From: Zygnema cylindricum
Lineage: Eukaryota; Streptophyta; Zygnematophyceae; Zygnematales; Zygnemataceae
Assembly: GCA_037447655.1 (NCBI GenBank)
Contig: JBBHKE010001841.1
Span: 124,001 to 188,000 of the forward strand
Reading direction: 5' to 3'
Length of the DNA stretch: 64,000 nt
Within the stretch, counting starts at the first letter, position 1, and every line of letters starts with the position of its first letter. Both the position numbers and the translations under genes were made by a program. Below are positions 12,058 to 59,755 of this stretch, piece after piece. The notes beneath the pieces were generated by a model that was not told the origin of the DNA, ran no database searches, and saw nothing but the letters and a program-made list of their open reading frames with translations.

Positions 12058-12720
12058 TGTTGAATAAGGTATTTTATGTTCTAGTTCGTTTGTCTATGGT
12101 CTTACTATGTCATAGTCAATGAGAACTGGTGGCTGCCCCAAACAAACACAAAGAAAAATAGATGGAGCTGAAGACACAACTCCTACAAAAGATGATGCAT
12201 AAGACCAGGATTTGATCCCGAGACCTCCCAAATAGACACCGTATGGTATAGCCTTTCGTCTTATCCATTAGGTATTGAAGAGCGTTAAAGTATATCGGGT
12301 TTGATTTATATTTAAACATTACATGGCGGCATATTTCATTTAACTGTTTACCGCGCAATATGAACATGGAACAAATAGGATCGCACAAAATTCTGGATCG
12401 CACGAAACGAACGAAACGACATTTAAATTCAACGGAAAAAATCAAATGTCATTTGCGACCGACAGCCCACAGAGGAGCCGGAATTTCGGAGTGGACATTT
12501 GGCGGTTTGCAAGCCAATGTCGGCGGACAACAAGTGGCAAGATATGATTTGACAATGTATATTACGAGGGGAGCAACTACGGCTCAGGAACTAACACGCG
12601 TCAGCGGAGCGACCATGCTGTACTATGGCCATACAAAAGTACAGCGGTATTTGTACCTTCTTGTACCTTAGAGTCATTTGATTAGCTAGGTTACATTAAT
12701 AGTAGGTTTAGAGAGGGAGA
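12058..12720 (+). mobile_element. Truncated copia LTR (Q)
   Basis: Starts TGTTGAATAAGG and continues with blocks shared by the other clade LTRs: a reverse-complement GTGACTACAACAAGTATG body relative, an antisense tRNA-like region, a GTACTATGGCCATAC...GTACCTTCTTGTAC hairpin region, and TCATTTGATTAGC. It fades at about 12720 before the usual R-U5 part. It interrupts the Z RNase H fragment. Confidence 0.55.
12200..12275 (-). other. Antisense tRNA-like module in LTR Q
   Basis: On the minus strand CTAATGGATAAGACG resembles a tRNA-Arg-type A box and GGGATCAAATCC a B box, about 45 nt apart. It lies 142-217 bp inside the LTR and opposite to LTR polarity. Acceptor stem not recognisable. Confidence 0.5.
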
Positions 12721-13512
12721 TTTTTCGTGCATGTGTCAAATAACGTGAAGATGCATGCAATATCATCAGCTGTGCTCTAATTAAACCCAAACGATAACAA
12801 GATATCGTGATAAACACAAAAGTGAAAATGGATAAATACAACAACGGGCAAGGTGGAAGAAAAAGAAAGGTGAACGACTAAGCTGGTTATGGTTAGGTCG
12901 GTTTATTATGGCCACTAGGCCCCACGGTCTATTTACATTCCTTACAGGAGTTACCTTATCGAAGACAATCTGAATATAGACTTAAAGAGAAAAAATAAAA
13001 ATATAAACAATCGAGAAGGAAAACAAAAACTGAAAATGACCATATGCCAAACACTTATGAGGTTTGAGATAACCAAACTCAAAAGATGCGCATAAGACAA
13101 ATAGAAATTAATTCAAAATTACAAGAAATAAAAACAACAAATTGATATTCCCAACATGCAATTTCCACACTAATTAAGGTTCAGCCACAGCCGGGAAAAG
13201 AAGTTTGTGTTGTGAGATCGCGATCGTAATCCACTTAAAAGGACGAAAGGAGTTGAAGAGGAATCGTGCAAGTCTTGGTTGAAGCCTTATAGATTAATAT
13301 GTAGGGCTTTACAAGAGAATGATAAAATAAGAAAAAACTAGACGCTTCACGCTAAGGCAGAAAATCGCCTCTAAGCTGTCAGAACAATTTTACAAAGAAA
13401 AAGATGGTTGCAGAAAATTTCAATACCAAAAATAATTCATGCACTTGAAAAGTGTGTGCATGAAATAATCTAAAATCTACTAAGTACTAGCGTCTACGCC
13501 TAGCCAAACAAA
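12721..13512. other. AT-rich non-coding sequence between LTR Q and element A
   Basis: No gene or clear repeat family recognised. A CCCCACGGTCTA motif near 12922 resembles a motif in the D LTR, so some old LTR material may be present. Confidence 0.35.
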
Positions 13513-14582
13513 TGTAACACTGTGACCTCCGTTGGAACATAGAATGTTCACCTTATATAAAGCTTTTAGGATAACATATGCACATTTGACTCTGGCAATG
13601 AACAAGTGCAGTGCCGCCCTGGCACGCAAAAACGTTGATCGACTATCACCCTTGTGTAGCCTGGACTCCGTTGAGTCCGCTACAAAAAGAATCATTGAAA
13701 TCCCTCACCTAAACATTAAATTATGGTTGTTCAAAGACAACAAATTTATACAGATTGCCTTCGGGAGAGAAGACTTTCAAAAAATTCTCTAAGTCCTAAG
13801 AACATACTCACAACTCTGCTAGACCAATCAAATTACAGCACACTACATAATGTATATAGAAAGTACGGTAGCCGCAGTACTTTATGTACGGAAATATACG
13901 ACACCTCTCTAGGTCTGCCACGTGGCAAGTAAGTCGTTGTCGTTCTGTCTTTTTCTTCTCCGATATCCAACACGATTATGCCACGTGTCACTTTCCTTCA
14001 TTTTGACGAAGTACGGCTAAAAAGTCTTCCTGGCATTCTAGCACTCACACATGCTGTCCGTTTGTAATACAACGATCGATGTCGGCCGTTTGATCTTGAC
14101 AGCGCGCCGAATGATGATGACCTTTGAAATTCTTACAGTGTTGACCATTGAATGTCAACGGTCGTTATCCCGTGTTGACCGTTGAATTTCCAGTTCCTCT
14201 ACGAACCGTCAATCGCAAATGACATTTAATTTCGTCTGTTGAAATTAAATGTCGTTTCATTTATTTTTTTGCGATACACTATTTCGTACTGTACTGTACT
14301 TCCCATGTCCAATTGGTTTCGTTTAGCCGTGAAATGAATTGTGTCGCCGCGTCATTATTCAAATATTTATCAAATAACTTATGTGCATCGAATCTTCAAG
14401 ACCCACCGAATAAGGTGGACAGCTATTTCGTAAGGATGTCATCCGGGAGGTCATACGATCAAATCCTTTCCCTGGCATGCCTGTCTTCTCATCTACCTGA
14501 AAGTGACTATGACAAGTATCAGAACTGCAGAATGGCCAAAGACCGACTAAGAAGATAGATTATAAAATACCATTTTTCAACA
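13513..14582 (-). repeat. 3' LTR of element A (1070 bp)
   Basis: Right end (LTR start on minus) is TGTTGAAAAATGG directly after purine tract AATAAAAGGGAG. The left end is TGTAACACTGTGACCTCC, aligned with the equivalent end of G's LTR. It contains GCCACGTGGC at 13917-13926. Confidence 0.75.
14401..14475 (+). other. Antisense tRNA-like module in LTR A
   Basis: Plus-strand CCGAATAAGGTGGACAGC resembles an A box and ACGATCAAATCC a B box; body motif AAGTGACTATGACAAGTAT follows downstream. Opposite to LTR polarity, about 107-181 bp in from the LTR start. Confidence 0.5.
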
Positions 14583-14596
14583 CTCCCTTTTATTTT

Positions 14597-18616: not shown

Positions 18617-19121
18617 TGTTAGGATAAAGTACTGAGCACTCACTTAGGGACAAAACATTCTCTTCGCTAAGGTAGTGACGACCAACGACGAAGTAGTTTC
18701 GTTGCTAGATATTTGAAGTGACGTAGAAAATGTTTGGTCGTTTTGTTTCGCGCGAGTTATAGTCGTACTATAGAAATGACGTTGAAATTGTTTCGTCGCT
18801 TCGGTTCACTAAAGTTCTAGTCGTGCCGTGTATTTCAAGTCGGTTGGTAGTTGACTTTCTTTGTTGGTCAACCAACTTAGGACGACTACCTTTTTGTTGG
18901 CCGTATAGTTCGCTACGCATTTTTAGTTGTGTAGATATATATTTGTTGAGACTTCGTGGTAGAGTTATCTTTTGGAGGCATAGATTATTAACGAGGCGTA
19001 GAAAGGTCAGAAGTAAAAGGGAGAAAGTAAATAAGTTGTATTTACATTGTGTTTAAATATATTGAATGTTTTGAAGGAACACTATTTTGTGTGTATATTT
19101 TGTTTGGTTTGTTATCTTTCA
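18617..19121 (+). mobile_element. 5' LTR of element B (505 bp)
   Basis: Starts TGTTAGGATAAAGTACTGAG, ends ATCTTTCA, and is followed two bases later by a conventional PBS. A second copy in inverse orientation lies at 61843-62400. A CGACGAA hairpin sits near 18682-18706. It truncates A and is itself cut off by C. Confidence 0.8.
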
Positions 19122-19123
19122 TT

Positions 19124-19203
19124 TGGTATCGGAGTGGGTTACTGGCAACGCTTTTCGGTATGGCGGAGAAAGGGAAATCCACAGCGGAACCTAGTGGAGG
19201 AGT
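19124..19203 (+). mobile_element. PBS and gag start of element B, truncated
   Basis: TGGTATCGGAGTGGGTTA (19124-19141) is complementary to the 3' end of initiator tRNA-Met with few mismatches. An ATG at 19159 opens MAEKGKSTAEPSGG-like coding, cut at 19203 by the LTR of C. Confidence 0.7.
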
Positions 19204-20170
19204 TGTTGAAATCACTAGATTTATGAAGTATTTTTTAGGTCCGAATAGCTGAATAGAAAAAGAAAAGAAAAGCGCAAGCAGTCTACCTCCACCTCTTTTC
19301 TTTGTCCCTCATACTTGTTGTAGTCAATGAAAGAGAGAAAGAGAGAAGTGGAGCCATGGCTGCCTAAGCTCCAGTAGGTAGGACTTAAGAGTGACTTAAG
19401 TCACTCTCAACAAAAGGTTGAGTCCGGCAGGACTTGAACCTCCGACCGGCAGAGCGAGGCGTAGCTGTCAGCTCTAACCGATCTGTCGTAAAAGTTCTTT
19501 AAAGTACATAGGGCGTGATATATACTTAAACAACGTTTTAATCTCTAATCAGGTGACAGAAGTATGAATGAATGGACATAAAATTAGTTAAAATATAGTG
19601 CGAACATAATCCCGTACAAAAAAAATGAATCGGACATTTGTTTCGACGACTAACATAAAATGTCGATTTTATCCAACAACGCATATCACGGTCGAGATCT
19701 CTGAACGGTCACTTTGGCATTTTGTGATGTGGCATGACCTGGCGCCACGTAGAGAGATAACATTTGGTCATGAGAAATCCGAGGAATATAAGGACGAGTA
19801 AAAAGTGGACACGCGTCCACTTGATGGCCTTTTCGTACATAGGCCGTACAGTTATCTGATTGGTTCATACTGTAGTACATAGGGGTTGTGAGAGGGAATT
19901 AGGACTTAGCAATTTTTGGTAGACAGTTAGCTCTCTCCTTGAGAATTTGTATAAATTGGCATCTTTGCCACCTTATAACTTATCGGTTGGTTTGTTGTTT
20001 TCAGTGATTCTTTTTGCTACGGCCTCAGGGGAGTTCAAAATGCATAAGGGTGTAGTCAGATTGTCAACTTGTGTGCATGGGCAGCAGTGGTTGTGGTTGA
20101 AAGTGGGTTAGTTAAATACTACCTAAAGGCTTCTTGAATTTTGTAGTCCAATGGAGGACACAGAATTGCA
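19204..20170 (+). repeat. 5' LTR of element C (967 bp)
   Basis: TG...CA ends, TATA-like TTGTATAAATTGG near 19947, and the Gag ATG (20151) inside its last 20 bp. Directly followed by the PBS. Confidence 0.85.
19420..19490 (-). other. Antisense tRNA-like module in 5' LTR of C
   Basis: Minus strand: TCGGTTAGAGCTG (A-box-like, as in GGTTAGAGC tRNAs) and GGTTCAAGTCC (a perfect match to the B-box consensus), 40 nt apart. The SINE-like body (GGCAGCCATGGCTCC, then TTGACTACAACAAGTATG) lies beyond it, at about 19305-19370. Confidence 0.6.
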
Positions 20171-24136: not shown

Positions 24137-25410
24137 TGAAACTTTGAGACCTCCATTGGCCCTCAGAGTAGGCAGATCCAAAAAGAAGCTAATCTAGGTA
24201 GTGCCGACTCCAACTTGATATAAACCCAAATAACTGACCCCTTGATAGTAAAAACCCCAATACAGCTTCACCCCTGTGAAAGAATACTTTCTGTGTGCTC
24301 AGTTCCACCACAGAATGCAAAGGTAGAATATGAGATTTGGACACATTCACCCACTTTGACTTTCCCTTATAATAAGTGCCACTTTGGCACGCAAAGACAC
24401 TTACCGACTACACCCCTTTTTAGCCTGGACTCCCATGAGTCCGCAGCAAAAAGAATCACCTAAAATGGTCAAGTAAATTGATAGTTATGGCTGGCCAAAG
24501 TTTGCCATTTATACAAGGTGCTCTCTGGGAGAGCGAATCACCTAAAATGGTCAAGTAAATTGATAGTTATGGCTGGCCAAAGTTTGCCATTTATACAAGG
24601 TGCTCCCTGGGAAGAGCAGCTACCTACCCAAAATATTCTAAGTCCTATTCCCCTTCTAAAAATCTATCTACTGAAGTACGACACCAATCAAATTACTGTG
24701 TCGTACATAAAAGTATAGGTACCGGTGTACTTTCTGTACGACCATCGTACGACATGGCCAAAATGTCGACACGTGTCATAGCCAAATTTGTTCCCGCAAT
24801 CTCCAGAGTCGCGGCAATCCAACATTGTTGCGCCACGTGTCACATGACGTGGCGATGACTGAAAAACGCCAAAAGTACATATTTCGTGATCGCGGCGCCT
24901 ATCGTGGCCGTCCGATCAAACCGGATACAATTGTAGCCGTTGAAAATACACCCGCGATATTTGTTTCGCGTTCAAAACAAATGCGCGGTATCCGTTTCAT
25001 AAAATACATTAAATCGTACTCCGTACTATACAAAACTGTATCTATACATTACGTATCTATTTTCTGTTAGACGAAATAGTCTACGTGTAAAAACATAAAT
25101 ATCTGTCAAACCTATTATACTTTAGCACTGGATTTAAACTTATTGGTTGAAGCTAACGGCTAGTTTGACGGACGGCAGGTACCCAGATCAAATCCTCGGT
25201 CCGTCAAACCTTTTAGATAACTCTATCAAGATTTGCCTTCTTGTCCTCTTTGGACAGCCTAGGCAGCCATGGATCCAACTCCTCTTCAAGTCTTCAGTGA
25301 CTGCGACAAGTGTGGGGACTTGAGTGAAGAGTTAGAGGCAGGCAGTCACTGTCCCCTTTTTGCCTTTTATTTTACAATCTCAAGACTTAGAAAATACTTA
25401 AATTTCAACA
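24137..25410 (-). mobile_element. Solo LTR O (minus), TSD GTTGC
   Basis: Reads TGAAACTTTGAGACC...AATTTCAACA on the plus strand and is flanked by GTTGC at 24132-24136 and 25411-25415. RNase H of C resumes immediately after the second GTTGC. No internal region. A ~78-bp stretch (from AATCACCTAAAATGGTCAAG) is tandemly duplicated at about 24459-24620, partly explaining the 1274-bp length. Confidence 0.9.
25145..25207 (+). other. Antisense tRNA-like module in solo LTR O
   Basis: Plus-strand GAAGCTAACGGCTAG (A-box position) and CCCAGATCAAATCC (B-box position), then the body GGCAGCCATGGATCC and CAGTGACTGCGACAAGTGTG. Opposite to LTR polarity, 203-265 bp inside. Confidence 0.5.
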
Positions 25411-25783: not shown

Positions 25784-26784
25784 TGTTAAAATTACTAGAT
25801 TTATGGAGTATTTTTTAGGTCTGAATAGCTTAGTAGAAAAAGAAAAAAAAAGCGCAAACAGTCTGCTTCCACCTCTTTCCTTGATCCCCTATACTTGTTG
25901 TAGTTACTAAAAGAGAGAGAGTGTAGTGGAGCCATGGCTGCCTCAGCTTTATATGCAAGACTAAAGAGTGACATAAGTCACTCTCAACAAAAGGTTGAGT
26001 CCGGCAAGACTCGAACCTCCGACCGGCAGAGCGAGGCGTAGCCGTCAACTCTAACCAATCTGTCATAGAAGTCCGTTAAAATACACAGAGTGTGATAAAT
26101 ACTTTAAGTGTGTTTTAATCTGTAATATGATTAACAAAATTATGAATGAATTGACATAGAACTAATTAAATTACAGTGCAAACATTATCCCGCACTAAAC
26201 AAATGAATCGAACATTTGTTTCAACGGCTAACATTAAATGTCGGTTATTATCCAACGCCGCATATCATTGCTAAGATCTCGGAATGGTCACTATGACGTT
26301 TTGTGACGTGGAATGACCTGGATCCACTTGGAGAGATAACATTTGGTCGCGAGAATTTCGGTGAATGTAAGGACGAGTAAACAATGGACACGCGTCCACT
26401 CAATGGCCTTGTCGTACACATGCCGTAAAATAAGTACATCGACAGTAGTACTTTCATTACTGTACAGTTATCCGATTGGTTCGTGCTGTAGTAGATAGGG
26501 GTTTTGAGAGGGAATTATGACTTAGCATTTTTTGGTAGACACTTAGCTTCCTCTTCGAGAGTTTGTATAAATTGGCATCTTTGCCACCTTATAACTTATC
26601 ACCTGATTGGCCGTTTTCATTGATTTTTTTTGATACAGACTCAAGGGATTCGAAAATGCACAGGGGTGTAGTCAGATTACCAACTTGTCTGATTGGGCAG
26701 CAGTGGTTGTGGTTGAAAGTGGGTTAGTTAAAATCTATCTAGAGGCTTCTTGAATTCTGTAGTCGAATGGGGGACACAATTGCA
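25784..26784 (+). repeat. 3' LTR of element C (1001 bp)
   Basis: TGTTAAAATTACTAG to GACACAATTGCA. It still contains the Gag start region (GTCGAATGGGGGACACAATTG) as expected when gag begins inside the LTR. It carries its own antisense tRNA-like module. Confidence 0.85.
25995..26067 (-). other. Antisense tRNA-like module in 3' LTR of C
   Basis: Minus strand: TTGGTTAGAGTTG (A box) and GGTTCGAGTCT (B box). Same position and orientation as in the 5' LTR. Confidence 0.6.
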
Positions 26785-26789
26785 GAACC

Positions 26790-27116
26790 TACACAATGCT
26801 AAATAATTATCAAACCCTATGTATTCTAACAAACTTCAACGACAGACACGCTAAAGCTGCCAGCTACGCCTCGCTTTGCCAGTCAGAGGTTTGAGTCCTG
26901 GCGGACTCACGTTTTTGATAAGAGTGCTTATGTCACTCCTTAGTTCTACCTAAGGAGCTGAGGTAGCCATGGCTCCATCTCCCTCTCTATCCTTTAGTGA
27001 CTACAACAAGTATGGGGACTAGAGAGAGGAGATGGAGACACGTTGCCCATGCTCTTTCCTCCTTTTTTTTTAATCAATAAGAACTTAGAAAATACCCTCT
27101 AAATCTAGTGATTTCA
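26790..27116 (-). mobile_element. LTR fragment P (C-type, minus)
   Basis: The reverse complement matches the first ~330 bp of the C LTR, from TTGAAATCACTAGATTTAGA through the tRNA-like part. The rest of the LTR is missing and an A-run joins it to the truncated G LTR at 27117-27121. Confidence 0.65.
26840..26910 (+). other. Antisense tRNA-like module in LTR fragment P
   Basis: Plus strand: CGCTAAAGCTGCCAGC (A-box region) and AGGTTTGAGTCCTGG (B-box region), then GAGGTAGCCATGGCTCC and TTAGTGACTACAACAAGTAT as the body. Opposite to LTR polarity. Confidence 0.5.
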
Positions 27117-27120
27117 AAAA

Positions 27121-27544
27121 AAAGTTCATTCCAAGATGGCGGCGTGAACTTCAACCGTACGATTGCGCTAATTTGTGGGGTTCCATCCGCGTCGGTATAC
27201 TAGATACATTTATATGTACACCGTTGGTCCTTTGTTTCGTTAAACATATGAGTCGTGCTAAATTTATTTAAAAAATCTATGATACCCCATATATGTATCG
27301 AATCATCTACGACTTGGCAGATAAGCCGGATGGCTATTGCGTACGGCACTATCCTACAAGACCTAGGATCAAATCCTAGTTTGACCACCAATTTTTGCAG
27401 GGGACTAATCCTCGTGTCTGCCTCTCTATCTTCATAAGGCAGCCATGGTTGCTCTTGAGTTCTCAGTGACTACGACAAGTACGACGACTCACTAACAACA
27501 CAAACCGCCAAAAATATAAAATTTATAAAATACCTTTTTAAACA
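27121..27544 (-). repeat. 3' LTR of G, truncated
   Basis: Matches 59333-59755. Its right end TTTTTAAACA is followed by the purine tract complement CTCCCCTTG. The outer ~500 bp of the LTR are missing, replaced by fragment P. Confidence 0.8.
27309..27385 (+). other. Antisense tRNA-like module in left LTR of G
   Basis: Plus strand: CTTGGCAGATAAGCCGG (A-box region) and a perfect T-arm CTAGG / ATCAAAT / CCTAG. The body AAGGCAGCCATGGTTGC and CAGTGACTACGACAAGTA follows. Opposite to LTR polarity. Confidence 0.55.
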
Positions 27545-27644
27545 CTCCCCTTGTTTTCTAATCTATCTTTTGCTTTAGTCCACAATTATCCCTATAAAAT
27601 ACCAATCTAGGTGAGGGCACCGATTTAGTTATCATGTTTGCTAA
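27545..27644 (-). pseudogene. RNase H extreme C-terminus, element G
   Basis: Minus strand: ITKSVPSP, LVFYRDNCGLKQK then stop and purine tract ACAAGGGGAG. The preceding residues continue at 45444 beyond inserted element D. Confidence 0.75.
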
Positions 27645-28636
27645 TGTTGAAAAACTGAGTTATTTTATTTTTTCTAGGTCAAAATTTAAAAATAAAATGG
27701 ACTTAATTTATAGTAGGCTCCACTCTCTCTCTCTCTCCTGTTGCCATACTTGTTGCAATCCCTGAAGACTCGTCAGAGAGAGATGAAGCCATGGGTGCCT
27801 AAGCAGCCACAAGAGGGGAGGTAGATGAATCTTCAGCAAAAAGGTTGTCGCACCAAGGATTTGATCTTGGTCCCTATAGTCCGTCATAGTAGCCAGTAGC
27901 CGGTAGCGTTGTCCTATAGTTTGAGACTAGTGCTAAGATAGATGGGGTATGATAACTATATAAACCAATACAATTGGATTAAGCCGATTAACGAAATTAT
28001 AGAACAGTAACATAGAAACATTTAAAGTATTTAGTAGGCCCACGGTCTACTATATTGAACGGCTCATATTGAATTCTGGTTTACATCGGACAGCTCCTAT
28101 TCAAGCCGCTATTGCGGAATAGTCGCTTTGGCCATTTTTGGACGTTATGTCACCAAGTGCCACGTGGCAACTCATCATTCGATTACAAGAATTGCGAAAA
28201 ACCGGGAGGCAAGTCGGAAGGTGACGGGTGTCCCCTCCATGTCCATGTTGTACAATGGCCATACAGAAAGTACATCGACGTCAGTATCTTTCTGTACAGT
28301 ACACTCATTTGATTGGACCTGTACACCAGTAGTAGGGTGTTTAGTGAGGGGTTTATGACTTAGTGTTTTTTGGTAGATGCGCGCCTCTCTCTTAGAGAGC
28401 TTGTATAAAAATTGGCATCTTTGCCACCTAATAAATAATCGTTTGGTTGGGCGTTTTTGAGAAATTCTTTTTGCATCGGGCTCAGAGAAGTGTATCCTTC
28501 ACAAGGGTGAAGGCTGTAAGGGAATTTGCCTTCCAAAGTGGCAGTTGTTCCTAGGTAAAGAGAGGCACTTCAATTTATCCTAGAGGCTTGTAGTAAGCTG
28601 CATATTATGTGCACCATTGGAGGTCACAAAATTGCA
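27645..28636 (+). repeat. 5' LTR of element D (992 bp)
   Basis: TGTTGAAAAACTGAG to CACAAAATTGCA. Contains the palindrome GCCACGTGGC (28158-28167), TTGTATAAAAATTGG as TATA-like box (near 28402) and an antisense tRNA-like module. Confidence 0.85.
27845..27930 (-). other. Antisense tRNA-like module in 5' LTR of D
   Basis: Minus strand: ACTATAGGACAACGC (A-box position) and T-arm CCAAG / ATCAAAT / CCTTGG. Body motifs TAGGCACCCATGGCTTC and TTGCAACAAGTATGG follow. 200-285 bp from the LTR start, antisense. Confidence 0.5.
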
Positions 28637-29400
28637 GGTTGTGGACCCACCCTCGAGAGTGCCCATCTTTGATGGAACATTGTTTATCTTTTTTTCCTTC
28701 CACTTCATCTTTAGTCACCTTTCATGAAAAGTGGCCACGCCTCATCTGAATGTAAATAGAGCCTCCGATCTGTGGGAGGCACTTGAAGACATTTATAAAA
28801 GTGGCACGATTCACGTACAAAAACTTGCAGATTAAAAATTTTAGGCAGTTAGTCACTAAGGAGAGAAAATGATTGATTTCTGCACTATGTTGGTGGGTTT
28901 TTTTGTGGAGTTGGAGAGTGCAGAGAAGGTGGAATCAGAAAAATAGAAGGTGAATACTTTGCTAATGAAGCTCCCGTAGGAGTATGAAAATATTGTCAAC
29001 AGATTTAAGGATCTGCGAGAAAGTTGGTGGATTTGGAACACGGTGGTTAGGATGATATAGGTTAGAGAAAACACCATTGAGCTTCGGAGCAGAGGAAAGA
29101 GTGGTCACGCCTTGGCCGCTGGAACCAATTTGAGAGATCAGGAGAACAAAAAACCATATGCAAACTTCGGTGGAGGCGAGAGAGGAGATCAAACGGATGG
29201 ATCCGGATCTCGGCCTCCAGTAGGGCTTTGCCATTTTTGTAAAAAACTTGGTCACCACATGGCAGATTCCACCAAGCTGACTAAACTAAGGCTTAAGGAG
29301 AACAAATCTGGTGTACCTTCCGGGAAGAAAAATAAAGTTGTAATCACACGGGTGAAAGGGGAGCTTGGAGAAAAGAAAATCTCTAACGAAAAGGACTAGG
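28617..29400 (+). pseudogene. Gag, element D
   Basis: The start codon in the LTR has become ATT (28617). Residues read LQVVDPP through the PBS, then PIFDG. The middle is scrambled by frameshifts. A frame at 29112-29399 gives AAGTNLRDQENKKPYANFGG, a knuckle GLCHFCKKLGHHMADS whose last Cys is now Ser, and KLTKLRLKE. Confidence 0.75.
28637..28652 (+). other. Half-tRNA primer-binding site, element D
   Basis: GGTTGTGGACCCACCC, the anticodon-arm initiator tRNA-Met site with two changes (A to G, G to A). Confidence 0.65.
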
Positions 29401-31423: not shown

Positions 31424-31915
31424 TGTTGAAAAAATGTAATTAATAGTTCACTTCTCCATTTTAGTTATACTTTAAATAAAGAGAGTGAGGATGAAAGGCA
31501 CGCCATGGCTTCCGCCATGTTTAGAAAGTGGCAAATTTTGAAGTAGAGGATATTTTACTAAAATGTTGCCTAAGTCCAGATTTGAACCTAGATCTGTGGA
31601 CCAGTATGTAGACGTAAGCTTTATCCACTAGGGCGTTATCGAAACGATACACGTGACGGGTTCCAAAAATATATAAATATTAACGCGACAGCTAATTAAC
31701 TGCAGACTAATGAAAAGGAGCAATTCATGCATGTACGCAAATCTGAACAGTGTAAAATATATTTTGATCAGACGGCCCGCATTGTAGCCGCCATGCGAAG
31801 TGAACTTTTCGCGGCATTTGGAGAGAGCGTCATACGGTGCCACGTGGCGCCACATTATTTGATACGGGAGATATTGGGAGCGGGAACCGTGGCTCCCGAT
31901 TTGACAGGTGTCACC
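31424..31915 (+). repeat. 5' LTR of E, part before F
   Basis: TGTTGAAAAAATG to TGTCACC, matching 42345-42833. Contains GCCACGTGGC (31842-31851). The last five bases are the TSD of F. Confidence 0.85.
31567..31637 (-). other. Antisense tRNA-like module in 5' LTR of E
   Basis: Minus strand: CCCTAGTGGATAAAGC resembles a tRNA-Arg D-arm/A box, and GGTTCAAATCT a B box with one change. A stem TCTAC near the anticodon position is shared with H. 143-213 bp into the LTR, antisense. Confidence 0.55.
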
Positions 31916-42344: not shown

Positions 42345-43228
42345 TGTTGAAAATAGTTAATTAATAGTTCACTTCTCTATTTTAGTTATAATTTAAATAA
42401 AGAGTGTGAGGATCGAAAGCACGCCATGGCTGCCGCCATATTTAAAAAGTGGCAGATTTTAAAGTAGAGGATATTTTACTAAAATGTTGCCTAAGTCCAG
42501 ATTTGAGCCTAGGTCTGCGGACGAGTATGTAGACGTAAGCCTTATCCACTAAGGCGTTATTGCAACGATGTGACGGGTTTTAAAAATAACTAAACGTTAA
42601 CGCGACAGCTAATTAACAGCAAACTAACCAAAAGGAGCAATTCATGCATGTACGCGAATCTGAACCGTGTAAAACATGTTTTGATCGGACGGCCGGCATT
42701 GTAGCCGACACGCGAAGTGAGCTTTTGGCGGCATTTGGAGAGAGAGTCACACGGTGCCACGTGACGCCACATCATTTGATATCGGAGAAGATGGGAGCAA
42801 GAACCATGGCTCTCGATTTGACAAGCGTCACCTTGTAGACCATGTCGTACAATGGCCGTACAATAAGAACATCGCCTATTGTACCTTCTTGTACTATATA
42901 GTGTTCCTATTGGACTAGGGTTTAGTAGTAGGTAGTCGTGAGTAGGAAGACCATGGCTTAGTGATATTTAGGTACCTCTCTATAAGAGAGCTTGTAACTA
43001 TAAAGGTCAACTTTGACCAGCCATAACTTACTGCTCAAGGGAGCAAATTCAGTGATTCTTTTTGCGTTTGACTCAAGGTAGTCTTGTCCTCACAGGGGTG
43101 AGGGTGGTCAGAATATTTTTGTCATAGGGCGGCACTTATTCAGTGGGAGAGTGGAAGGGGAAAATATTATCCTAGAGGCTTTACATAGGCTGCTCATTCT
43201 GTGGGTCAATGGAGACCACAGAATTTCA
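42345..43228 (+). repeat. 3' LTR of element E (884 bp)
   Basis: TGTTGAAAATAG to CAGAATTTCA, intact because F only hit the 5' copy. G-box-like GCCACGTGAC at 42757-42766. Confidence 0.9.
42488..42558 (-). other. Antisense tRNA-like module in 3' LTR of E
   Basis: Minus strand: GCCTTAGTGGATAAGGC (Arg-type D-arm with closed GCC/GGC stem) and GGCTCAAATCT (B box with two changes). Confidence 0.6.
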
Positions 43229-44486: not shown

Positions 44487-45443
44487 TGTTGAAAAACAAT
44501 TTATTTATGTGTTTTCTAGGTCAGAAAAAAAAGGAGTTAATCGATAGTTAGGCTCCCTCTCTCCAATTGCCATACTTGTTGCAATCCCTAAAGACTTGTC
44601 AGAGAGAGATGAAGCAATGTTTGCCTAAGCAACCACAAGAAGGGATGAAGATTAATCTTCAGCAAAAAGGTTGTCACACTATGGATTTGATTCTTGTCCC
44701 TATAGTCCATTAGAATAGCCAGAAGCCTGTAGCGTTGTCTTATAGTCTAGGATCAGTGCAAGGATATATAGGGTGTGATAACTATATAAACCTATGCAAT
44801 TGGATTAAGCCGATTAACGAAGTTATAGGACAGTAACATATAAACAATTAAAGTATTTATTAGGCGCACGGTCTACTATATACAACGGCTAATATTGAAT
44901 TCCGGTTATCATCGGACGGCTCATATTCAAGCCGCCATTGCGAAATAATCGTTTTGGCCGTTTTTGGACGTTATGTCACCAAGTGCCACGTGGCAACTCA
45001 TCATTCGATTGCAAGATTTGCGAGAAACTCGAAGGCAAGTCCGAAGGTGACGAGTGTCCCCTCGATGGCCATGTCGTACAATGGTCGTCAGTATCTTTCT
45101 GTAATGTTTAGTCATTTGATTGGACCTGTACACCAGTAGTAGGGGGTTTAGGGAGGGGTTTATGACTTAGTGTTTTTGGGTAGATGCCCACCTCTCTCAT
45201 AGAGAGCTTGTATGAAAAAAAACATTTTTGCCACTTAATAATTAATCGCTTGGTTCGGCGTTTTTGAGCAATTAATTTTGCATTGGGCTCAAGGGAATCT
45301 ATCTTTCACTGGGGTGAAGGTAGTCAGAGAATTTGTCGTCCAAGGTGGTTGTTTTTCCTAGGTATAGAGAACTACTTCAAATTATCTTAGAGGCTTCAAG
45401 TAAGCTGAATATTCTGTGCACAAATGGAGGTCACAGAATTGCA
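44487..45443 (+). repeat. 3' LTR of element D (957 bp)
   Basis: TGTTGAAAAACAATT to CACAGAATTGCA. GCCACGTGGC at 44987-44996. It retains AATGGAGGTCACAGAATTGC, the Gag start. Confidence 0.9.
44664..44755 (-). other. Antisense tRNA-like module in 3' LTR of D
   Basis: Minus strand: ACTATAAGACAACGC and AGAATCAAATCC; same place as in the 5' LTR. Confidence 0.5.
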
Positions 45444-49200: not shown

Positions 49201-49311
49201 ACCGACATAATAAACCTCGGTCTTTTAATTACTCATATTCAACCTAAACATTCCTTGGCTACCCTTTTCAGCTGTGAAATATACCTCATCCTCATAGCTA
49301 GCAACAAAGAC
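49201..49311 (-). pseudogene. Protease C-terminal piece, element G (left of H)
   Basis: Minus strand: DEVYFTAEKGSQGMFRLNMS-type sequence. The frame runs up to the AAGAC target site (49307-49311) and continues at 54017. Confidence 0.7.
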
Positions 49312-49574
49312 TGAAATTCTATGGGCTCCATTGCCCACAGAATTCGCAGATCCAAAAGAAGCTAATCTAGATAGTGCCGACTCCAAGTTTATATAAACCC
49401 AAATGAATGATCCCTTGACAATTAGAACCCCAATACACCTTCACCCCTGTGAAGAGAAGACCTTGTGTGTGCTCAGTTCTGTTGACGTACGTAAAACGTG
49501 CTGATCGATACCCAGAATTGTGGTAAAATCCACACTAAAAACTATATAAAATTGGACCCACCAGCATAACATCT

Positions 49575-49647
49575 GAGCTGGTGGTACAGTGGTTAGTACA
49601 TTCACAGCTAAAGTGAAAGGTCCCAGGTTCAAATCCTGGCCGGCTCA
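49575..49647 (+). tRNA. tRNA-like cloverleaf in LTR1 of TRIM K
   Basis: 73 nt fold completely: acceptor GAGCTGG/CCGGCTC (one G-U), D stem GTAC/GTAC, anticodon stem TTCAC/GTGAA, loop AGCTAAA, variable AGGTC, T stem CCAGG/CCTGG with loop TTCAAAT, discriminator A, no encoded CCA. A box TGGTACAGTGG and B box GGTTCAAATCC match consensus. The loop centre reads CTA, but position 33 is G, not T, so decoding is doubtful. Best seen as a pol III promoter and structural module of the element, not a cellular tRNA gene. Confidence 0.7.
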
Positions 49648-49863
49648 TGAATCCCTTTATTGGGATCATCCATTCTATCCCCCGATTCTAGGAATCTTAA
49701 CATGGTATCAAAGCCAGGGGGACTAGGTTTACATGGACAATTATGACCAGCTACCTCTCAAGGGGGGGTGTTGACGTACGTAAAACGTGCTGATCGATAC
49801 CCGGAATTGTGGTAAAATCCACACTAAAACCTATATAAAATTGGACCCACCAGCATAACATCT

Positions 49864-49936
49864 GAGCTGGTGGTACAGTGGTTAGTACATTCACAGCTAA
49901 AGTGAAAGGTCCAAGGTTCAAATATTGGCCGGCTCA
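49864..49936 (+). other. tRNA-like module in LTR2 of TRIM K, partly decayed
   Basis: Same as LTR1 except the T arm, now CAAGG/ATTGG, with mismatches; the B box reads GGTTCAAATAT. A box, D and anticodon stems unchanged. Confidence 0.65.
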
Positions 49937-50664
49937 TCAATCCCTTTATTGGGATCGTCCATTCTATCCCCCGATTCTAGGAATCTTAACAAGTTCCACC
50001 ACAGAATGCAAAGCTTGAATATGTGTTTTGGACAATACTCCCCACTTTGACTTTCCCACTGAATAAGTGCCACCCTGGCACACAAAGACTCTGACCGACT
50101 ACACCCATGTGTATCTTGGACTTCCCTGAGTCCGCAGCAAAAAGAATCACCGAATTTGCTCACTCGAGCATTAAGTTTTGGCTGGCCAAAGATGGCCTAT
50201 AAATACAAAAGGTCACCTGGAGAGAGGCGCCTCAAATACGCTAAGTCCCTTAACTCCTACTCATAACTATCTACTACTCTACCCTAGGCCAGTCAAAAGA
50301 GTGTATAGTACAAGAAGGTACAGTGGCCGATTGTACTTCTTGTACGGCCATTGTACTACATGGCCTTTTGGTTGACACTTGTCAACTTGGGAGCCATCGT
50401 TCCTCCTCCCATCTTTCCTGGCGTCCAATGATGTGTAGCCACGTGGCAAAGCGCGCCGCGCTGTCTGGAAGCCGCCGAAGATTCATTCGGGTTTGGCGGG
50501 GGCGACGAAAGCCGTCCGATCATATATTTTACACGGTTAGATTCGCGTCCGCGAGCGCTGTTTGACTATAGATGTCGTTTCGTCAATTTTGGTCTGTTTA
50601 AGTCAAAGTGACGTTTCAATAAGACTTTAATTAATAACCGAACCATATACGTGTATCGTTTCGT

Positions 50665-50740
50665 TAACGCCTAAGTGGATAAGGCTTACGTCTACATAGT
50701 ACTCCGTAGACCCAGGTTCAATTCCGGCAATAGGCAGTAT
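50665..50740 (+). other. Antisense tRNA-like module in left LTR of H
   Basis: CGCCTAAGTGGATAAGGC (Arg-type D-arm and A box), stem GTCTAC/GTAGAC, and GGTTCAATTCC, a perfect B box. The acceptor stem does not close. The body GCAGCAGCCATGGCCTGCC follows at about 50795. Antisense to H. Confidence 0.65.
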
Positions 50741-50937
50741 TTTACTAAAAGTAGTAAAATTCCTTCTAATTTATTCTGCCTCCTTCTAAATGACGCAGCA
50801 GCCATGGCCTGCCTTTGGTCCTCTCATTCTCTGTTTTTACATTCTAACTAAAATATAGAAGTAAACTATTAATAACCTTTTTCCAACACTCTAATTATTT
50901 TTCCAATACAGACCTAGAAAATACATTAATTTCAACA

Positions 50938-50976
50938 CTCCCCTTATTTTTTAGTCTACTTCCGTTTCAACTCCCA
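50938..50976 (-). other. Purine tract of element H
   Basis: Minus-strand AAAAATAAGGGGAG next to the LTR start TGTTGAAATTAATG, as in the autonomous relatives. Confidence 0.7.
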
Positions 50977-51861: not shown

Positions 51862-51886
51862 TTACTCCTCATCCACATTCCAACTC

Positions 51887-52912
51887 CTAAGTTTCCAAAC
51901 AAGGGCATTCCTCCATATAATGACCCGGTTCCCTACAAAAGAAGCAAACCCCCTTTTTCAAAGCTCCCCTTTCTTTTACTCTCCCTCTCTTTCCACCAAA
52001 GTTCCGATAAGGTTTACCTTTGTCTTTCTTCCTCTCATCACGCTTTCGCTCGTCACCGCCGTTCCTCTCATCACGCTTCCGCCAATCACCGCCAGCTGTA
52101 AATGCAGTCACCTTGTCACTTCCCCTACGAAGCTCCAAAGTGCTTTCCCTCACAAGAATTATCTCCATGGTAAAGCTCCAAGTCCATAAGGAGCCATCCA
52201 TTGCCTGCATACGATAAATGATGTTTTCGTACTCATCTGGGAGTTTCATGAGTAATGTATTAATCTTTCTCTCCTCAGATTCTACATACCCCGCACTAGC
52301 AAGCTCGACATATAACGCAGCAATTTCTTTACAAAACACTATCATGTTACCGCTTTTATAAACATAGGCCTCTATTTCTTGTTTTACTAACTGCTGCCTC
52401 TGAATAGTCTCACTCTTATAAATCTGACTTAGTGTTTCCCAGATTTTCGAAAACTTGGTTAGACTTAAAAGAGTGATAGCTATGGACTTAGACACATATC
52501 TAAGTATGAGATCTTTTGCTATAGTGTTTTTATACTCCCAAATTTTACTATCATTTTTTTCAGTTTTACTTATAACCCCTCTAAGTGGAGCTGTGGCGGA
52601 GAGCATAGCTCCCCTCACCATAAGTGTCCTTTTATCCTTCTCCCCTTTTCCCCCTTCCATGACAATATTTTTCCCTTCACCTTCCGTTGCATCTAAAATA
52701 CAGTTGGTTTTATGGGAAGCCCCTAATGATTCTCCGTAGTGAGTTCCTCCAAATCCCGGTGGCCGACACCTCACTTGTCCCGAAACAATTCCCCATAAGT
52801 GCTTCTCGAAAAGCAATCCCTCCATTGTAAACTCCCAATAAGTGAAGTCTGCTCCATCGAACATAGGCACCCTAGATGGTGGGCCCATAACCTGAAATTC
52901 TATGGGCTCCAT
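51887..52912 (-). CDS. Intact Gag of element H (341 aa)
   Basis: Starts in the LTR at MEPIEFQVMGPPSRVPMF, where VMGPP is encoded by the PBS. FDGADFTYWEFTMEGLLFEK, LWGIVSGQVRCRPPGFGG, ILRYVSKSIAITLLSL, KIWETLSQIYKSETIQRQQL (UBN2-like core), EAYVYKSGNMIVFCKEIAAL, MKLPDEYENIIYRMQAMDGS and ILVRESTLELRRGSD follow. Two short RKRDER repeats precede the CCHC knuckle CFFCREPGHYMEEC near the C-terminus. Gag forms the virus-like particle and packages RNA. No internal stop, complete length for the clade. I start at the family-conserved Met (52912) rather than the in-frame one eight codons upstream. Confidence 0.85.
   Translation of the reverse strand: MEPIEFQVMGPPSRVPMFDGADFTYWEFTMEGLLFEKHLWGIVSGQVRCRPPGFGGTHYGESLGASHKTNCILDATEGEGKNIVMEGGKGEKDKRTLMVRGAMLSATAPLRGVISKTEKNDSKIWEYKNTIAKDLILRYVSKSIAITLLSLTKFSKIWETLSQIYKSETIQRQQLVKQEIEAYVYKSGNMIVFCKEIAALYVELASAGYVESEERKINTLLMKLPDEYENIIYRMQAMDGSLWTWSFTMEIILVRESTLELRRGSDKVTAFTAGGDWRKRDERNGGDERKRDERKKDKGKPYRNFGGKRGRVKERGALKKGVCFFCREPGHYMEECPCLET
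52879..52892 (-). other. Half-tRNA primer-binding site, element H
   Basis: On the minus strand GGTTATGGGCCCAC directly follows the LTR end AATTTCA: a perfect complement of the initiator tRNA-Met anticodon arm. Confidence 0.75.
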
Positions 52913-54016
52913 TGCCCACAGAATTCGCAGATCCAAAAGAAGCTAATCTAGATAGTGCCGAATTCAAGTTGATATAAACCCAAATGAATGATCCCTTGAC
53001 AATTAGAACCCCAATACACCTTCACCCCTGTGAAAAGAAGACCTTCGGTGTGCTCAGTTCCACCACAGAATGCAAAGCTTGAATATGTGTTTTGGACAAT
53101 ATTCCCCACTTTGAATTTCCCACTTTATAAGTGCCACCCTGGCACGCAAAGACTCTGATTGACCACACCCCTGTGTAGCTTGGACTCCCCTGAGTCCGCA
53201 GTAAAAAGAATCACTGAATTTGCTCACTCGAGCATTAAGTTATGGCTGGCCAAAGATGACCTTTATAGTTACAAGCTCTCTTAGAGAGAGGTACCTAAAT
53301 CTCACTAAGTCTTGGTCTGCCTACTCACGACTACCTACTACTAAACCCTAGTCCAATAGGAACACTTTATAGTACAAGAAGGTACGATGGGCGATGTACT
53401 TATTGTACGACCATTGTACGACATGGTCTACAAGGTGACATGTGCCAAATCAGGAGCCATGGTTCCTCCTCCCATCTTCTCCGGTATCAAATAATGTGGC
53501 GCCACGTGGCACCGCGTGACGCTATCCCCAAAGGCCACCGAAAGCTTATTGCGGGTGGCGGCTGTTATGGTGGCCGTCCGCTCAATTGTATTTATACGGA
53601 TTCGATTCGCTTCCATGCATCAATTGATTAATGCGCGTTTTCGTTAGTCTGCTGCGAATTAGCCCTTTGAATCAATAGCTAAATATGCGTGAAACGTCTA
53701 ACCTGTATCGTTTCGATAGTAACTAAATGGATAAGGCGTTGGTCATTAGTAGCCTACAGACCCCGGTTCAAACCCAGCCGGCGACAGTATTTTGGTAAAA
53801 CTAGTAAAATACTTTCTAATTCATTCTGCCTCCTTCTAAATAATGCAACAACAATGGCGTGCCTTTGGTCCTCTCTTTCTCTCTCTTTACATTTTGGTCC
53901 TTTCTTTCTTTCTCTTTACATTCTAACTAAAATATAGAAGTGAACTATTAGTCACCTCTTTTCAACACTCTATTTATTTTTCCGATACAGACCTAGAAAA
54001 TACATAAATTTCAACA
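52893..54016 (-). repeat. 5' LTR of element H (1124 bp)
   Basis: TGAAATTCTATGGGC to AATTTCAACA on the plus strand. GCCACGTGGC at 53502-53511, near GTACTTATTGTACGACCATTG-type hairpin sequence (53396). Confidence 0.9.
53717..53790 (+). other. Antisense tRNA-like module in right LTR of H
   Basis: ACTAAATGGATAAGGCG (A box) and CCCCGGTTCAAACCC (perfect B box), 42 nt apart. Antisense to H, 226-299 bp from the LTR start. Confidence 0.6.
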
Positions 54017-56359: not shown

Positions 56360-56674
56360 TTTTAGGGAAAGTAATTATCTTTTACATTTAATAATTTTTT
56401 GACGAATTTCTGATTTAAAACTTTGAATTTTGAAATTGTGTGAGAAGGAAAATTTCTACTTTGAAGACCTAGAAAGAGGTAGTGGAAGCAATGGTGTGTT
56501 TAGGAAGGAAGGATTTTGGAAGACATGGCAGCAGGCAGTTGGAGCAGTGGCGACGTCAGCGGAAGCAGTGGTGATGTCAGCGGAAGCAGTGGTGATATTT
56601 GAACGAAAGGTACAGTTTCATTTGACACGCGGCATACTTTATTATGGGTGCACGAAACTAAAATTTCGGGGGAG
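56360..56674 (+). other. Untranslated interior of element I, 21-bp repeat, purine tract
   Basis: Contains about two and a half tandem copies of GATGTCAGCGGAAGCAGTGGT at about 56554-56604 and the purine tract TCGGGGGAG just before the 3' LTR. No gene. Confidence 0.7.
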
Positions 56675-57592
56675 TGTTGTTTTTGAAATGTTAGTTTCGT
56701 ACTTACGCCACATTTTGTGCGCACGCGACGGTTCGTGCGTAGATTATTACCGGAAATATTGTGGTGGTACAAATGGAGGTTCGAATGGATTTGTGGATTG
56801 GGGGAGTAATTGTACAATTGAAGTTAAAGGATTGTATTTTGATAATGTGGTATCAAGTGGACCGTACGTATGTGATGTCGGTTCATGACGTGGTTTCGTC
56901 CTCAAGTGACTAATCAAGTTGATACTCAGTACGCGGATTTTACGGAAGCGTCGATGTAAATATTTGGTTGAACATTGATGTGTCTTTTTGTGAATTAATT
57001 ATTAGTGTAGATTTACTCACTTTGACATACCTTGAAGTATTCACGTATACCGACATTAATAGAGGTAGCTGGTAGATAGCGTACCGCTGATATGCCTCCG
57101 TACATTCAGCAGTAAGCTCTTGTATATATTTGTAGGACTTCGTCATTTTAGGACATAGGAACTTTTTGGACCAAAAACTGTTTATGGTTATTTTTGGTAA
57201 TTTTATCTGAGGATTACTCTCAGATCTGCTTGCGGAATTATCTGAAACTCTGCATGTTTGTTCCTATTTATATTTTTAATATTTTCACAAATTTTCAGGT
57301 CTATTGTGTGCCTGGTCTGTGTTTTACTTCATTGTGAAGTTAGCCTGTCTGATCAAAGTTCTGGCAGACTGTTTTTCTGCAACTTTGACTAGATGATGTG
57401 ATCAATCTGTTTATTATTTTTGTCTGAAACTTTGTGAGGTCATTTTATATCCTAGATAATATCTGTAAATGTAGTTTCAGCTTGTTTTGTTAATTCTGTT
57501 GAATTCTGTGTGTATCCAAAGTACGCTGTTTTTAGGGTAGTCTGTGGTGCTTCCTAGGGTGAATCCATGGCTAGAAATGGCTATGGACAACA
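56675..57592 (+). repeat. 3' LTR of element I (918 bp)
   Basis: Same length as the 5' LTR, about 98.8 percent identical by eye. It retains ATGGCTAGAAATGGCTATGG, the Gag start. Confidence 0.92.
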
Positions 57593-57760
57593 CTAATCTC
57601 CCATCCCCATACTCTATCTCTACCATAGGGATCTTTATCATTTTGGTAAACATATGTTTCTCTCTACACATATGCATAGAGGCACTAGTGTCAATGATCC
57701 AACCTTCTTCGGGTTTTTCTTTCACCCTCCCAAGGCACACTTTTGCTTCCTTGGATTGTG
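57593..57760 (-). pseudogene. Protease N-terminal piece, element G (right of I)
   Basis: Minus strand: PEEGWIIDTSASMHMCREKH (active site D-T-S, the G lost) and TKMIKIPMVEIEYGDGR, then the I insertion. Confidence 0.8.
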
Positions 57761-58830
57761 CGGCTCGGTTTTCACCTCCAACTCCTCGTTGGCGCAAAGT
57801 TTACCATCATCGTCATCGAAATCCTCTCTTGTTACTTGTGTTGCCACAAGTGCTTTCTTCTTTCCTCCGGCTGATCCACCATACTTCCCTTACTTAAGCC
57901 TCAACTCCGTCAATCTAGTACACTCAGCTATGTAATGCCCCGAGTTCTTACAAAAATGACAAAGCCCCTTTGGGGGCCTATATCCGAAATCATATGATTG
58001 AGAGCCTCTCCCTTCTCCTCAAAAGTTTCCATAAGGCTGCTTGAAATCCTCATTCCTCCAGTTAGTTCTAGTGGCCAAAGCTTGACCACTCTTTCCTCCT
58101 CTCCGAATCTCAATGGTATTTTCTCGAACCAAAATCATTCCAACAACAGAATTCCAAATCCATTGATGATCCGACAAATTGTGAACCCTGTTAACGATGT
58201 TCTCGTACTCATCCATTATTTTCATTAGTAAAGTGTTCACCTTTTCTTTCTCAGTGTCCCGTTTTCCATCATTCTCCTACTCCATAAACAATCCGGACAA
58301 GTCATTACAAAAGTCAAGCATCTTTCCTCCTTTGTAAACATTTGCATGCACCTTGTGATATGCCAATTTCTGCTGTTTAATCATATCGCTCTTGTAAATC
58401 TTTACAAGAGCCTTTCACAGGTTGGGTGCCTTGTCCACATTTAGGGTAGGAGTAGCAACTGCTTGGGTAAGACGCCCGTGAATAAAATGAGTTGCCACAA
58501 TATTGTTGAATTCCCACATGTCAATGTCATTTGCCTCGGTTTTTTGAACAGTTGCTATCAGTGTGAGTTACTCCTTCTCCTTCTCCTTTCCTTTGTGCAA
58601 CATGGTACTGTCTCAGTGAACAACTAATTCCTCTGCCCCCGCAAATCCTCCTAAGAATCGAGCTCCTCGAAACCTTAGTGGAACTCCCAAATTTGTAGAT
58701 GGCCACCGCACTGGACCACTCACAATGCCACATAGCCGTTATTCAAAAATGTGCACCTATCATCAAGGTTTCCCAGTAAATGAACCCCGTTCCATTTGAA
58801 ATGGGCACCCTAGAGGGTGGGCATATAACT
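57761..58830 (-). pseudogene. Gag, element G
   Basis: Minus strand: the knuckle reads GLCHFCKNSGHYIAEC (near 57930-57975). Upstream are RREKVVKLWPLE- and MDEYENIVNRVHNLSDHQWI- type blocks, LVRENTIEIRRGGKSGQALA, KMLDFCNDL-type and MEVTQSQVICPPSRVPISNG-type starts, in several phases. The start lies in the LTR as in relatives. PBS (58817-58830) is decayed: AGTTATATGCCCAC. Confidence 0.75.
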
Positions 58831-59755
58831 TGTGATTGTGTGACCTCCATTGGCCCACACAATATCTAACTAATATCAAGCCTCTAGGATATTTTTGCCC
58901 TTTGCCTTTCCCATTGAATAAGTGCCACCTTGGCACGCAAATATTTTGACCACCTTCACCCCTATGAAGGCGTGACTCCTGTGAGTTGAACACGAAAAAA
59001 ATCACTTTATTTTCTCCCCTGAGCTGTGAGTTATAGTTGGCCAAAGATGGCTTATAAACATAAAAGGTCACCTGGAGAGAGGCGCCTCAAAAACTCTAAG
59101 TCCCTAAACCTCTACTCACAGCTACCTAGTACTAAACCCTAGACAAATGGGGAAACTGTGCAGTACTAGAAGGTACAGTGGCCGATGTACTTCTGGTACC
59201 ACCATTGTACGACATGGCTTTCAAGTTGACGCTTGTCATCTTAGGAGCCATGGTTCTTTCTCCTGTATTCTCCGATGGCCAATGATTTGTCACCACGGGG
59301 CATTGCGTGACATTGTCTCTTATAGGCGCCAAAAGTTCATTTTGGAATGGCGGCGTGAATGTCAACCGTCCAATCACGCTAATTTGTGGGGTTTGATCCG
59401 TGTACGTATATTATATACATTTATAAGTACACCGTCGGGCGTTCGTTCTGTTAAATGAATGAGCCGTGTCAAAACTATTTAAATATCTATCACACACCAT
59501 ATACGTATTGATTCATCTACGACTTGGCGAATAAGGCGGATGGCTATTCAGTACGGCAGTATTTTGAAAGACCTAGAATCAAATCCTAGTCTCACCACTA
59601 ACTTTTGCAAAAGACTAATCCTCCTGTTCTGCCTCTATGTCTACCTAAGGCAGCCATGGCTGCTCTTGAGTTCTCTGTGACTACAACAAGTATGATGACT
59701 CACTATCAACACAGACCGCCAAAAAAGTAGACTTTATAAAATACCTTTTTCAACA
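58831..59755 (-). repeat. 5' LTR of element G (925 bp)
   Basis: TGTGATTGTGTGACCTCC to TTTTTCAACA on the plus strand. The inner half matches the truncated left copy (27121-27544). Its G-box is decayed (ACCACGGGGC near 59291). Confidence 0.85.
59521..59606 (+). other. Antisense tRNA-like module in right LTR of G
   Basis: CTTGGCGAATAAGGCGG (A-box region) and T arm CTAGA / ATCAAAT / CCTAG. The body AAGGCAGCCATGGCTGC and TGTGACTACAACAAGTATG follows at about 59648-59695. Antisense to G. Confidence 0.55.

Follow-up and report, generated by a model that had tools for sequence, protein, structure and literature searches.

An antisense, tRNA-derived Pol III-type module in the long terminal repeats of a Copia clade from Zygnema cylindricum

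What is a tRNA-like promoter doing on the antisense strand of the long terminal repeats (LTRs) of a Copia retrotransposon? The question is raised by a stretch of 64,000 nucleotides from Zygnema cylindricum (GenBank assembly GCA_037447655.1, contig JBBHKE010001841.1, positions 124,001 to 188,000; hereafter the window), in which an initial annotation, made from the letters alone, described A-box-like and B-box-like sequences opposite to the LTR in the U3 region of every LTR of one Copia clade. We lean, by a small step beyond an even balance, towards the answer that, throughout a clade of autonomous Copia elements, the LTRs contain a second, oppositely oriented and self-terminating RNA polymerase III (Pol III) gene, which appears to have been under selection over the lineage's lifetime and which some families have as a tandem pair. 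Such an LTR would be a dual promoter, RNA polymerase II (Pol II) reading forward and Pol III backward, and its short antisense product or its Pol III complex may regulate or shield the element. Our confidence is limited by two parts of the module, its D-arm and its terminator, which do not show the falling divergence ratio described below.

LTRs were located by self-BLAST of the window and their ends set by TG...CA, primer-binding site (PBS), polypurine tract (PPT) and target-site duplication (TSD) where visible, which mapped 18 Copia-type LTR sequences. A profile built from ten LTR heads recovered four further heads (nhmmer). Alignment and profile together place a single homologous tRNA-derived module, antisense to the LTR, in 14 of the 18 heads, which belong to ten elements (a, b, c, c2, d1, d2, e1, e2, g1, g2, i, p, Q and R; Table 1). 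The antisense A/B-box modules first described, including three exact B boxes, are thus real, and their number rises from thirteen to 14; they are not in every LTR, however, as f1, f2, h1 and h2, from two Copia-type elements, have neither an antisense B box of at least 9/11 nor a profile match. In the module-bearing heads the distance between B box and LTR 5' end is 129-252 nt. With the exception of c2 (GGTTTGAGTCC), each of these heads has on its antisense strand a B box that matches at 9/11 or more, T55, C56 and A58 included, and in 12 of these 13 heads, R being the exception, TTTT occurs within 35 nt of it. B-box-like matches on the sense strand are found in i and g2 among the 14, as well as in h1 and h2, none of them with TTTT (the strand comparison includes the partial LTRs c, c2 and e1). 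The exact sequence GGTTCRANYCC occurs four times in the window, at 19430-19440 (-), 50715-50725 (+), 53765-53775 (+) and 49626-49636 (+), the last inside a terminal-repeat retrotransposon in miniature (TRIM) discussed below; the mean per shuffle was 0.37, and one of 100 shuffles reached four.

How far does the module extend beyond the window? Across the 352.8 Mb assembly, a motif of the R region, several hundred nt from the module, has 6,536 exact matches against 16 for its backward control, so that the clade is abundant. From the first 100 listed places of this motif we fetched 60 stretches blind to the module and used 59 (L080 was dropped), a sample that covers contigs C1-C38 and LTRs with an intact R motif. 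The initial annotation had staked its case on the module being neither random in orientation nor missing from most of the family, and it held up on both counts: an antisense module was found at E < 0.01 in 48 of the 59 LTRs and one on the opposite strand in a single LTR (L032), apparently a nested inverted LTR. Among the 11 that lack an antisense module, LTR homology ends before the site is reached in eight, a break falls within it in L032, and two (L047 and L066) run through it in degenerate form; counting only LTRs in which the site is present, 48 of 50 carry the module. Models of the flanks gave a similar picture. When sites were located only by the sequence past the terminator, 34 of 44 had a B box of 9/11 or better on the antisense strand, as opposed to 4/44 on the other strand, and 33 of the 34 had TTTT 13-22 nt further on; with the upstream flank only, the figures were 29 of 37 against 3/37, with TTTT in 27. 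In 236 control stretches of 100 nt taken from the R side, no B box of this quality was found. Finally, GGTTCAARTCC followed by TTTT at 12-20 nt has 1,485 matches in the assembly against 19 for the backward control, a count in which longer T-runs are scored repeatedly and genuine tRNA genes and Helenus copies may be included.

The anatomy of the module is that of a Pol III gene: TATA, A box (weak), B box and T-run follow one another in the expected order. Two of these features, the TATA-like element upstream and the TTTT just past the module, were absent from the initial annotation. In 51 of 55 modules (E < 0.05) the distance from the B box to the start of TTTT is no more than 31 nt, and in 50 of these it is 13-19 nt, against a background of 22.9% within 35 nt. 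As the profile behind this count itself contains the terminator, the test was redone with a model ending at the B box, and 44 of 49 modules again had TTTT 13-19 nt further on (background 5.1%). Of the 55 modules, 48 have a TATA-like element 70-110 nt upstream of the B box, against a background of 14.5%; the motif was suggested by the window and tested on other LTRs. The predicted antisense RNA would be about 80-110 nt long and end before the LTR edge. A transcript running on towards the LTR 5' edge, as first envisaged, would presumably be stopped by the TTTT 13-19 nt past the B box.

Is the module under selection, or merely inherited? A constant orientation follows from common descent and so does not speak for selection; the case has to be made from divergence. 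With no motif preset, the most conserved 11-column window among the 439 compared across the eight window families is the B box itself (mean inter-family identity 0.78, overall mean 0.41); next come an AT-rich, TATA-like element that precedes the A-box region by about 45-50 columns, and the half of the D-arm that reads GGATAAGGC..GGCTA. Between the 5' and 3' LTRs of the same element, which diverge by drift once inserted, the B box fares no better than its surroundings, with an identity of 37/44 (84%) against 83% for the rest; between families it is 75% against 49%. Across 52 LTRs, B box divergence relative to the rest is 1.16 in pairs more than 85% identical (a class of 18 pairs only), and then drops with distance to 0.69, 0.61 and 0.48; that of the TATA columns falls likewise, from 0.96 through 0.88 and 0.75 to 0.50. 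Such falling ratios are what selection would leave while the elements transposed. The proposal that selection acts on the promoter boxes is therefore supported: between families the B box is better kept than the surrounding U3, and between distant families it diverges roughly half as much as the rest.

What has been conserved is not a tRNA. The Rfam tRNA model matched no module in the whole window, nor in the LTR head 50500-50937 searched alone. The D and T arms had been described as conserved, yet base pairing occurs in 60.7% of the cells of the named stems, compared with 59.7% after shuffling, and these stems show no covariation, so that what persists is the boxes and not the tRNA fold. When 19 antisense modules were folded, z ranged from -4.2 to +1.2, and shapes varied between families. 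We therefore rejected a functional tRNA gene, as the modules have no cloverleaf or covariance-model support and their D and T stems do not covary. ARAGORN with relaxed thresholds made many spurious calls on both strands of the LTRs and decides nothing.

Nor is there support for a tRNA type that changes within a kept slot, as had been supposed; instead, there are two module types. Six sampled LTRs carry tandem modules at E < 0.01 and seven at E < 0.05, with TTTT behind the B box in 13 of these 14 modules, and each of the seven (L035, L039, L043, L045, L050, L051 and L055) has one module of either type. In a tree of 69 modules (midpoint-rooted, with some weak nodes), the seven R-proximal tandem copies group with e, g, c, i and R, and their seven partners towards the LTR 5' end fall with a, b, c2, d, p and Q. 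The variety can thus be explained by differential retention or LTR recombination, and the LTRs with tandem modules are perhaps recombinants themselves. The type 1 D-arm resembles tRNA-Arg-like genes of the host. Six places in such host genes match a 17-mer of the D-arm plus the B box, and since only three have a TATA-like motif upstream and two TTTT within 20 nt, the host genes are laxer in these features than the modules. The position of the terminator, directly behind the tRNA part, would speak for an origin from a tRNA gene rather than from a short interspersed nuclear element (SINE).

The carriers are Ty1/Copia elements. Ten window open reading frames matched PF07727 (RVT_2, best 259 bits), PF14223 (Retrotran_gag_2), PF13976 (GAG-pre-integrase), PF00665 (rve) and PF22936 (Pol_BBD) in Pfam, domains seen across the elements of the window taken together. 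Directly behind the LTRs lies the PBS GGTTATGGGCCCACC or a close form of it (20171, 52891 and 55109; close forms at 28637, 32772 and 37917), which may be complementary to the anticodon arm of initiator tRNA-Met and would then mean half-tRNA priming. Priming of this kind has been described for Copia elements of Puccinia (PMC10886601). Taken by themselves, a half-tRNA PBS and the Helenus paper would point to a rust fungus as host; among at least 120 hits listed for one reverse transcriptase fragment (candidates capped at 8,000), the few proteins with a name come mostly from plants, and two from oomycetes, and a second query yielded a single weak hit. Some further features of the LTRs deserve mention. 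The PPT-like letters GAGGAG stand immediately outside the 5' LTR of element a/b (window 19197-19204). The LTRs of element g (49311-50937 and 52892-54016) share 96% identity over some 169 nt at their 3' end and about 75% elsewhere, which suggests that they are mosaic or recombined. As well, blocks GGCAGCCATGGC and ACAAGTAT between the module and the LTR 5' end (e.g. near 19352), together with CACGTG and TTTGTTTCGTGCGG upstream, are conserved too, some of them above the B box.

Table 1. Antisense modules and the TRIM in the window (window coordinates)
Feature	Position	Strand	LTR	B box	Other features
Q module	12187..12276	-	+, start ~12058	12208-12218 (10/11)	TTTT within 35 nt; nhmmer 2.1e-9
R module	14394..14475	+	-, start ~14584	14456-14466 (CGATCAAATCC)	without TTTT; nhmmer 0.0011 (core), 2.2e-10 (whole head)
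a module	19412..19492	-	19205-20170, +	19430-19440 (exact)	terminator CCTTTTG
p module	25133..25214	+	-, head ~25412	25185-25195	nhmmer 3.7e-12
b module	25989..26069	-	25784-26784, +	26007-26017	
c2 module	26835..26915	+	fragment 26798-27117, -	26888-26898 (GGTTTGAGTCC)	then TTTTT; nhmmer 3.5e-14
c module	27304..27395	+	27545..27119, -	27366-27376	then TTTTT
d1 module	27839..27922	-	27645-28636, +	27857-27867	then TTTTT
e1 module	31560..31640	-	31424-31915, +, broken by element f	31578-31588	
e2 module	42481..42561	-	42345-43227, +	42499-42509	nhmmer 6.2e-33
d2 module	44665..44752	-	44487-45443, +	44683-44693	
g1 module	50663..50743	+	50937..49311, -, broken by TRIM	50715-50725 (exact)	
g2 module	53717..53793	+	54016..52892, -	53765-53775 (exact)	
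i module	59514..59606	+	59755..58840, -	59576-59586	nhmmer 7.1e-26
Helenus-type TRIM	49480..49991	+	own LTRs 49480-49702, 49769-49991		inside LTR g1; TSD AGTTC; PBS TGGTATCAAAGC; sense tRNA-like sequence

What, then, might the module do? We read it as a short self-terminating antisense Pol III unit in U3, and give about an even chance to its being used, most likely, as a tDNA-like boundary or open-chromatin element. An ancestral tRNA gene, tRNA-Arg-like to judge from the type 1 D-arm, would have joined the U3 of a Copia LTR in reverse and been retained there as a small Pol III-type unit with a TATA-like element, a degenerate A box, a B box and TTTT, some hundreds of nt upstream of the presumed (unmapped) Pol II start. 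Recruiting TFIIIC, TFIIIB and Pol III, this unit would produce the self-terminating antisense RNA of about 80-110 nt, and, amid nested repeats, the resulting U3 barrier could hold silencing away from the LTR and leave its Pol II promoter accessible. The reverse orientation would also mean that the genomic RNA contains no tRNA-like target for tRNA-processing enzymes. The sequences themselves show the anatomy and homology of the module, its occurrence in the majority of the clade LTRs sampled, its fixed orientation, a B box that diverges less between families, and the lack of a conserved fold; that Pol III binds and transcribes it, and that it serves as a boundary, is what we infer. The model for a boundary is fission yeast, where a tDNA with TATA at -30 is reported to act as a Pol III-dependent heterochromatin barrier that is independent of orientation and needs the full Pol III complex (PMC2040200), and where B-box sites serve as boundaries (PMC4502379). 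The likeness lies in the upstream TATA, the A and B boxes and a tDNA barrier that functions either way round; the difference is that the reported barriers are host loci and not cargo of a mobile element.

Several observations weigh against this reading, or at least against parts of it. First, the boundary function is argued by analogy. Second, the A boxes are weak, with at least six of the seven specified positions in 29 of 55 modules (background 17%), those of the window LTRs being degenerate, and TTTT is a minimal terminator. The Rfam tRNA model gave one match, below threshold (22.4 bits, cut-off 29), among the 20 LTRs scanned of the 48 in the sample. Third, the divergence ratios of the D-arm (0.57, 0.81, 0.73 and 0.68, near to far) and of TTTT (0.28, 0.55, 0.55 and 0.63) are below the rest and show no falling trend, which makes the case for selection on these two parts weaker. 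The B box also has competitors within U3, as conservation of the islands GCCATGGC and TTTGTTTCGTGCGG equals or exceeds its own in the genome sample (where the best of its 11-mers comes tenth among 567 windows), and GCCATGGC and CACGTG diverge less than it does. Finally, the sampled sequences are related and their counts not independent, the 41 LTRs with a single module forming 19 clusters at 80%. On balance, what survives of the initial interpretation is an antisense Pol III-type module fixed in U3 with selection on its promoter boxes; the kept arms, the changing tRNA types, the transcript to the LTR edge and integration near tRNA genes are not supported.

The main rival of the boundary reading is an antisense RNA, complementary to the U3 at the 3' end of the element's own genomic RNA, that would control copy number, translation or reverse transcription in trans. 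Promoter elements and a terminator kept without a fold are just what such an RNA needs, since its complementarity to its own LTR is automatic. There is also a precedent in bovine foamy virus, where Pol III microRNAs are reported to arise from U3 and deletion of the cassette to attenuate replication (PMC7693620). That virus is likewise an autonomous LTR element with a Pol III unit in U3, here predicted from sequence, but its microRNA precursors are hairpins (dumbbells), and the Copia modules have no conserved fold. As the same pattern fits a boundary, we regard the antisense regulator as tentative, a serious but minority possibility.

Two further explanations dispense with Pol III function, and both strike us as improbable, the second a shade more so. 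The module could be a fossil, a tRNA gene, SINE or piece of Helenus inserted once into an ancestral LTR and inherited without function. This agrees with the homology of all copies by descent, with the decay of A boxes and arms, and with the D-arm and TTTT ratios that fail to fall, but was already disfavoured by the drop of the B box ratio from 1.16 to 0.48 with distance, and neither TTTT at 13-19 nt in 44/49 modules nor the TATA-like element in 48/55 sits well with it. Alternatively, the B box could be a Pol II transcription-factor site of the U3 enhancer whose resemblance to a tRNA is no more than that, U3 being a mosaic of conserved islands (GCCATGGC, CACGTG and TTTGTTTCGTGCGG) with the B box among them. 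Such a site, however, would hardly bring with it a TATA-like element, a tRNA-Arg-like D-arm, a B box and TTTT, arranged and spaced like the parts of a Pol III gene and for the most part confined to a single strand.

The insertion sites speak to another idea, that the modules act as landing pads, drawing the Copia integrase through the Pol III machinery and so bringing new copies into old LTRs. We examined the upstream flanks (351-617 nt) of 16 insertions. Three of these lie in the U3 of another clade LTR, one (L039) just behind the B box and two (L043 and L054) about 260-290 nt upstream of the A box. The other 13, however, lie outside clade-LTR U3, among them L030 and L056 in Copia internal sequence, and none of the 16 upstream flanks contains a tRNA gene. 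Integration near tRNA genes, one of the roles first suggested, finds no support in these flanks; the three U3 hits are at scattered distances, the 16 sites reveal no clear preference, and we consider landing pads very unlikely.

Finally, the TRIM nested in LTR g1 offers a direct comparison with the nearest cases on record. Helenus TRIMs are described as protein-less elements of 311-1263 bp whose LTRs contain A and B boxes of tRNA origin, and these boxes are proposed to act as the promoter of the template RNA (Kojima, 2024; PMC10886601). According to the same source, they have a 5-bp TSD in fungi and plants, Copia is the proposed mobiliser of the fungal ones, and the tRNA function is mostly lost; 'not a few' Repbase LTRs hold part of a tRNA, after which the paper goes on to classify TRIMs (PMC10886601). 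The window TRIM has all the marks of a Helenus/TRIMp3 element, namely paired short LTRs, a PBS, a PPT, a 5-bp TSD and a sense tRNA-like sequence. The latter is near-complete in each LTR (56.6 bits with Rfam in the first LTR, anticodon CTA), and no TTTT occurs in the 418 nt from tRNA start to element end, which is what a Pol III template RNA would need and the opposite of what the modules show. The modules share with Helenus/TRIMp3 tRNA-derived A and B boxes within an LTR (the A box weak), but their carriers encode Copia gag/pol, and they are antisense and end in TTTT. Cassandra and Ajax TRIMs, whose LTRs derive from 5S rRNA (as described in PMC10886601), likewise have a Pol III promoter in the LTR, but theirs is of the 5S type and the elements are short and non-autonomous. 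That the module, like the boxes of Helenus and Cassandra (PMC10886601), promotes the element's own RNA is scarcely credible and already contradicted, as its direction is away from the body of the element and TTTT follows 13-19 nt past the B box, whereas the window TRIM is sense and free of TTTT from tRNA start to end. The text of the Helenus paper uses neither 'antisense' nor 'opposite' (PMC10886601), and a search of open-licence papers turned up no earlier description of autonomous LTRs with a Pol III unit that is antisense and has a terminator.

The window holds a few other repeats. A 13-nt minisatellite of the CGATGAGTTAAAC type occupies 6663-6922, with 14 registers listed. An RVT_1-like fragment at 8340-9179 scores 26.2 bits, under the Pfam cut-off of 29.6, and overlaps a direct repeat (8000-8359/9144-9525, 89%). 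An inverted repeat pair, 18681-19121 and 61843-62297, is 75% identical, and its first copy is followed by TGGTATCGGAGT, a PBS-like stretch of the 3' initiator-methionine type.

Pol III promoters in LTRs have so far been a matter of protein-less TRIMs, in which they are thought to make the template RNA, and of foamy viruses. For those who annotate such genomes, the Copia modules are a warning that there are many degenerate tDNA-like sites. If the reading favoured here is true, LTR retrotransposons are able to take up tRNA genes and use them as regulators or insulators of their own.

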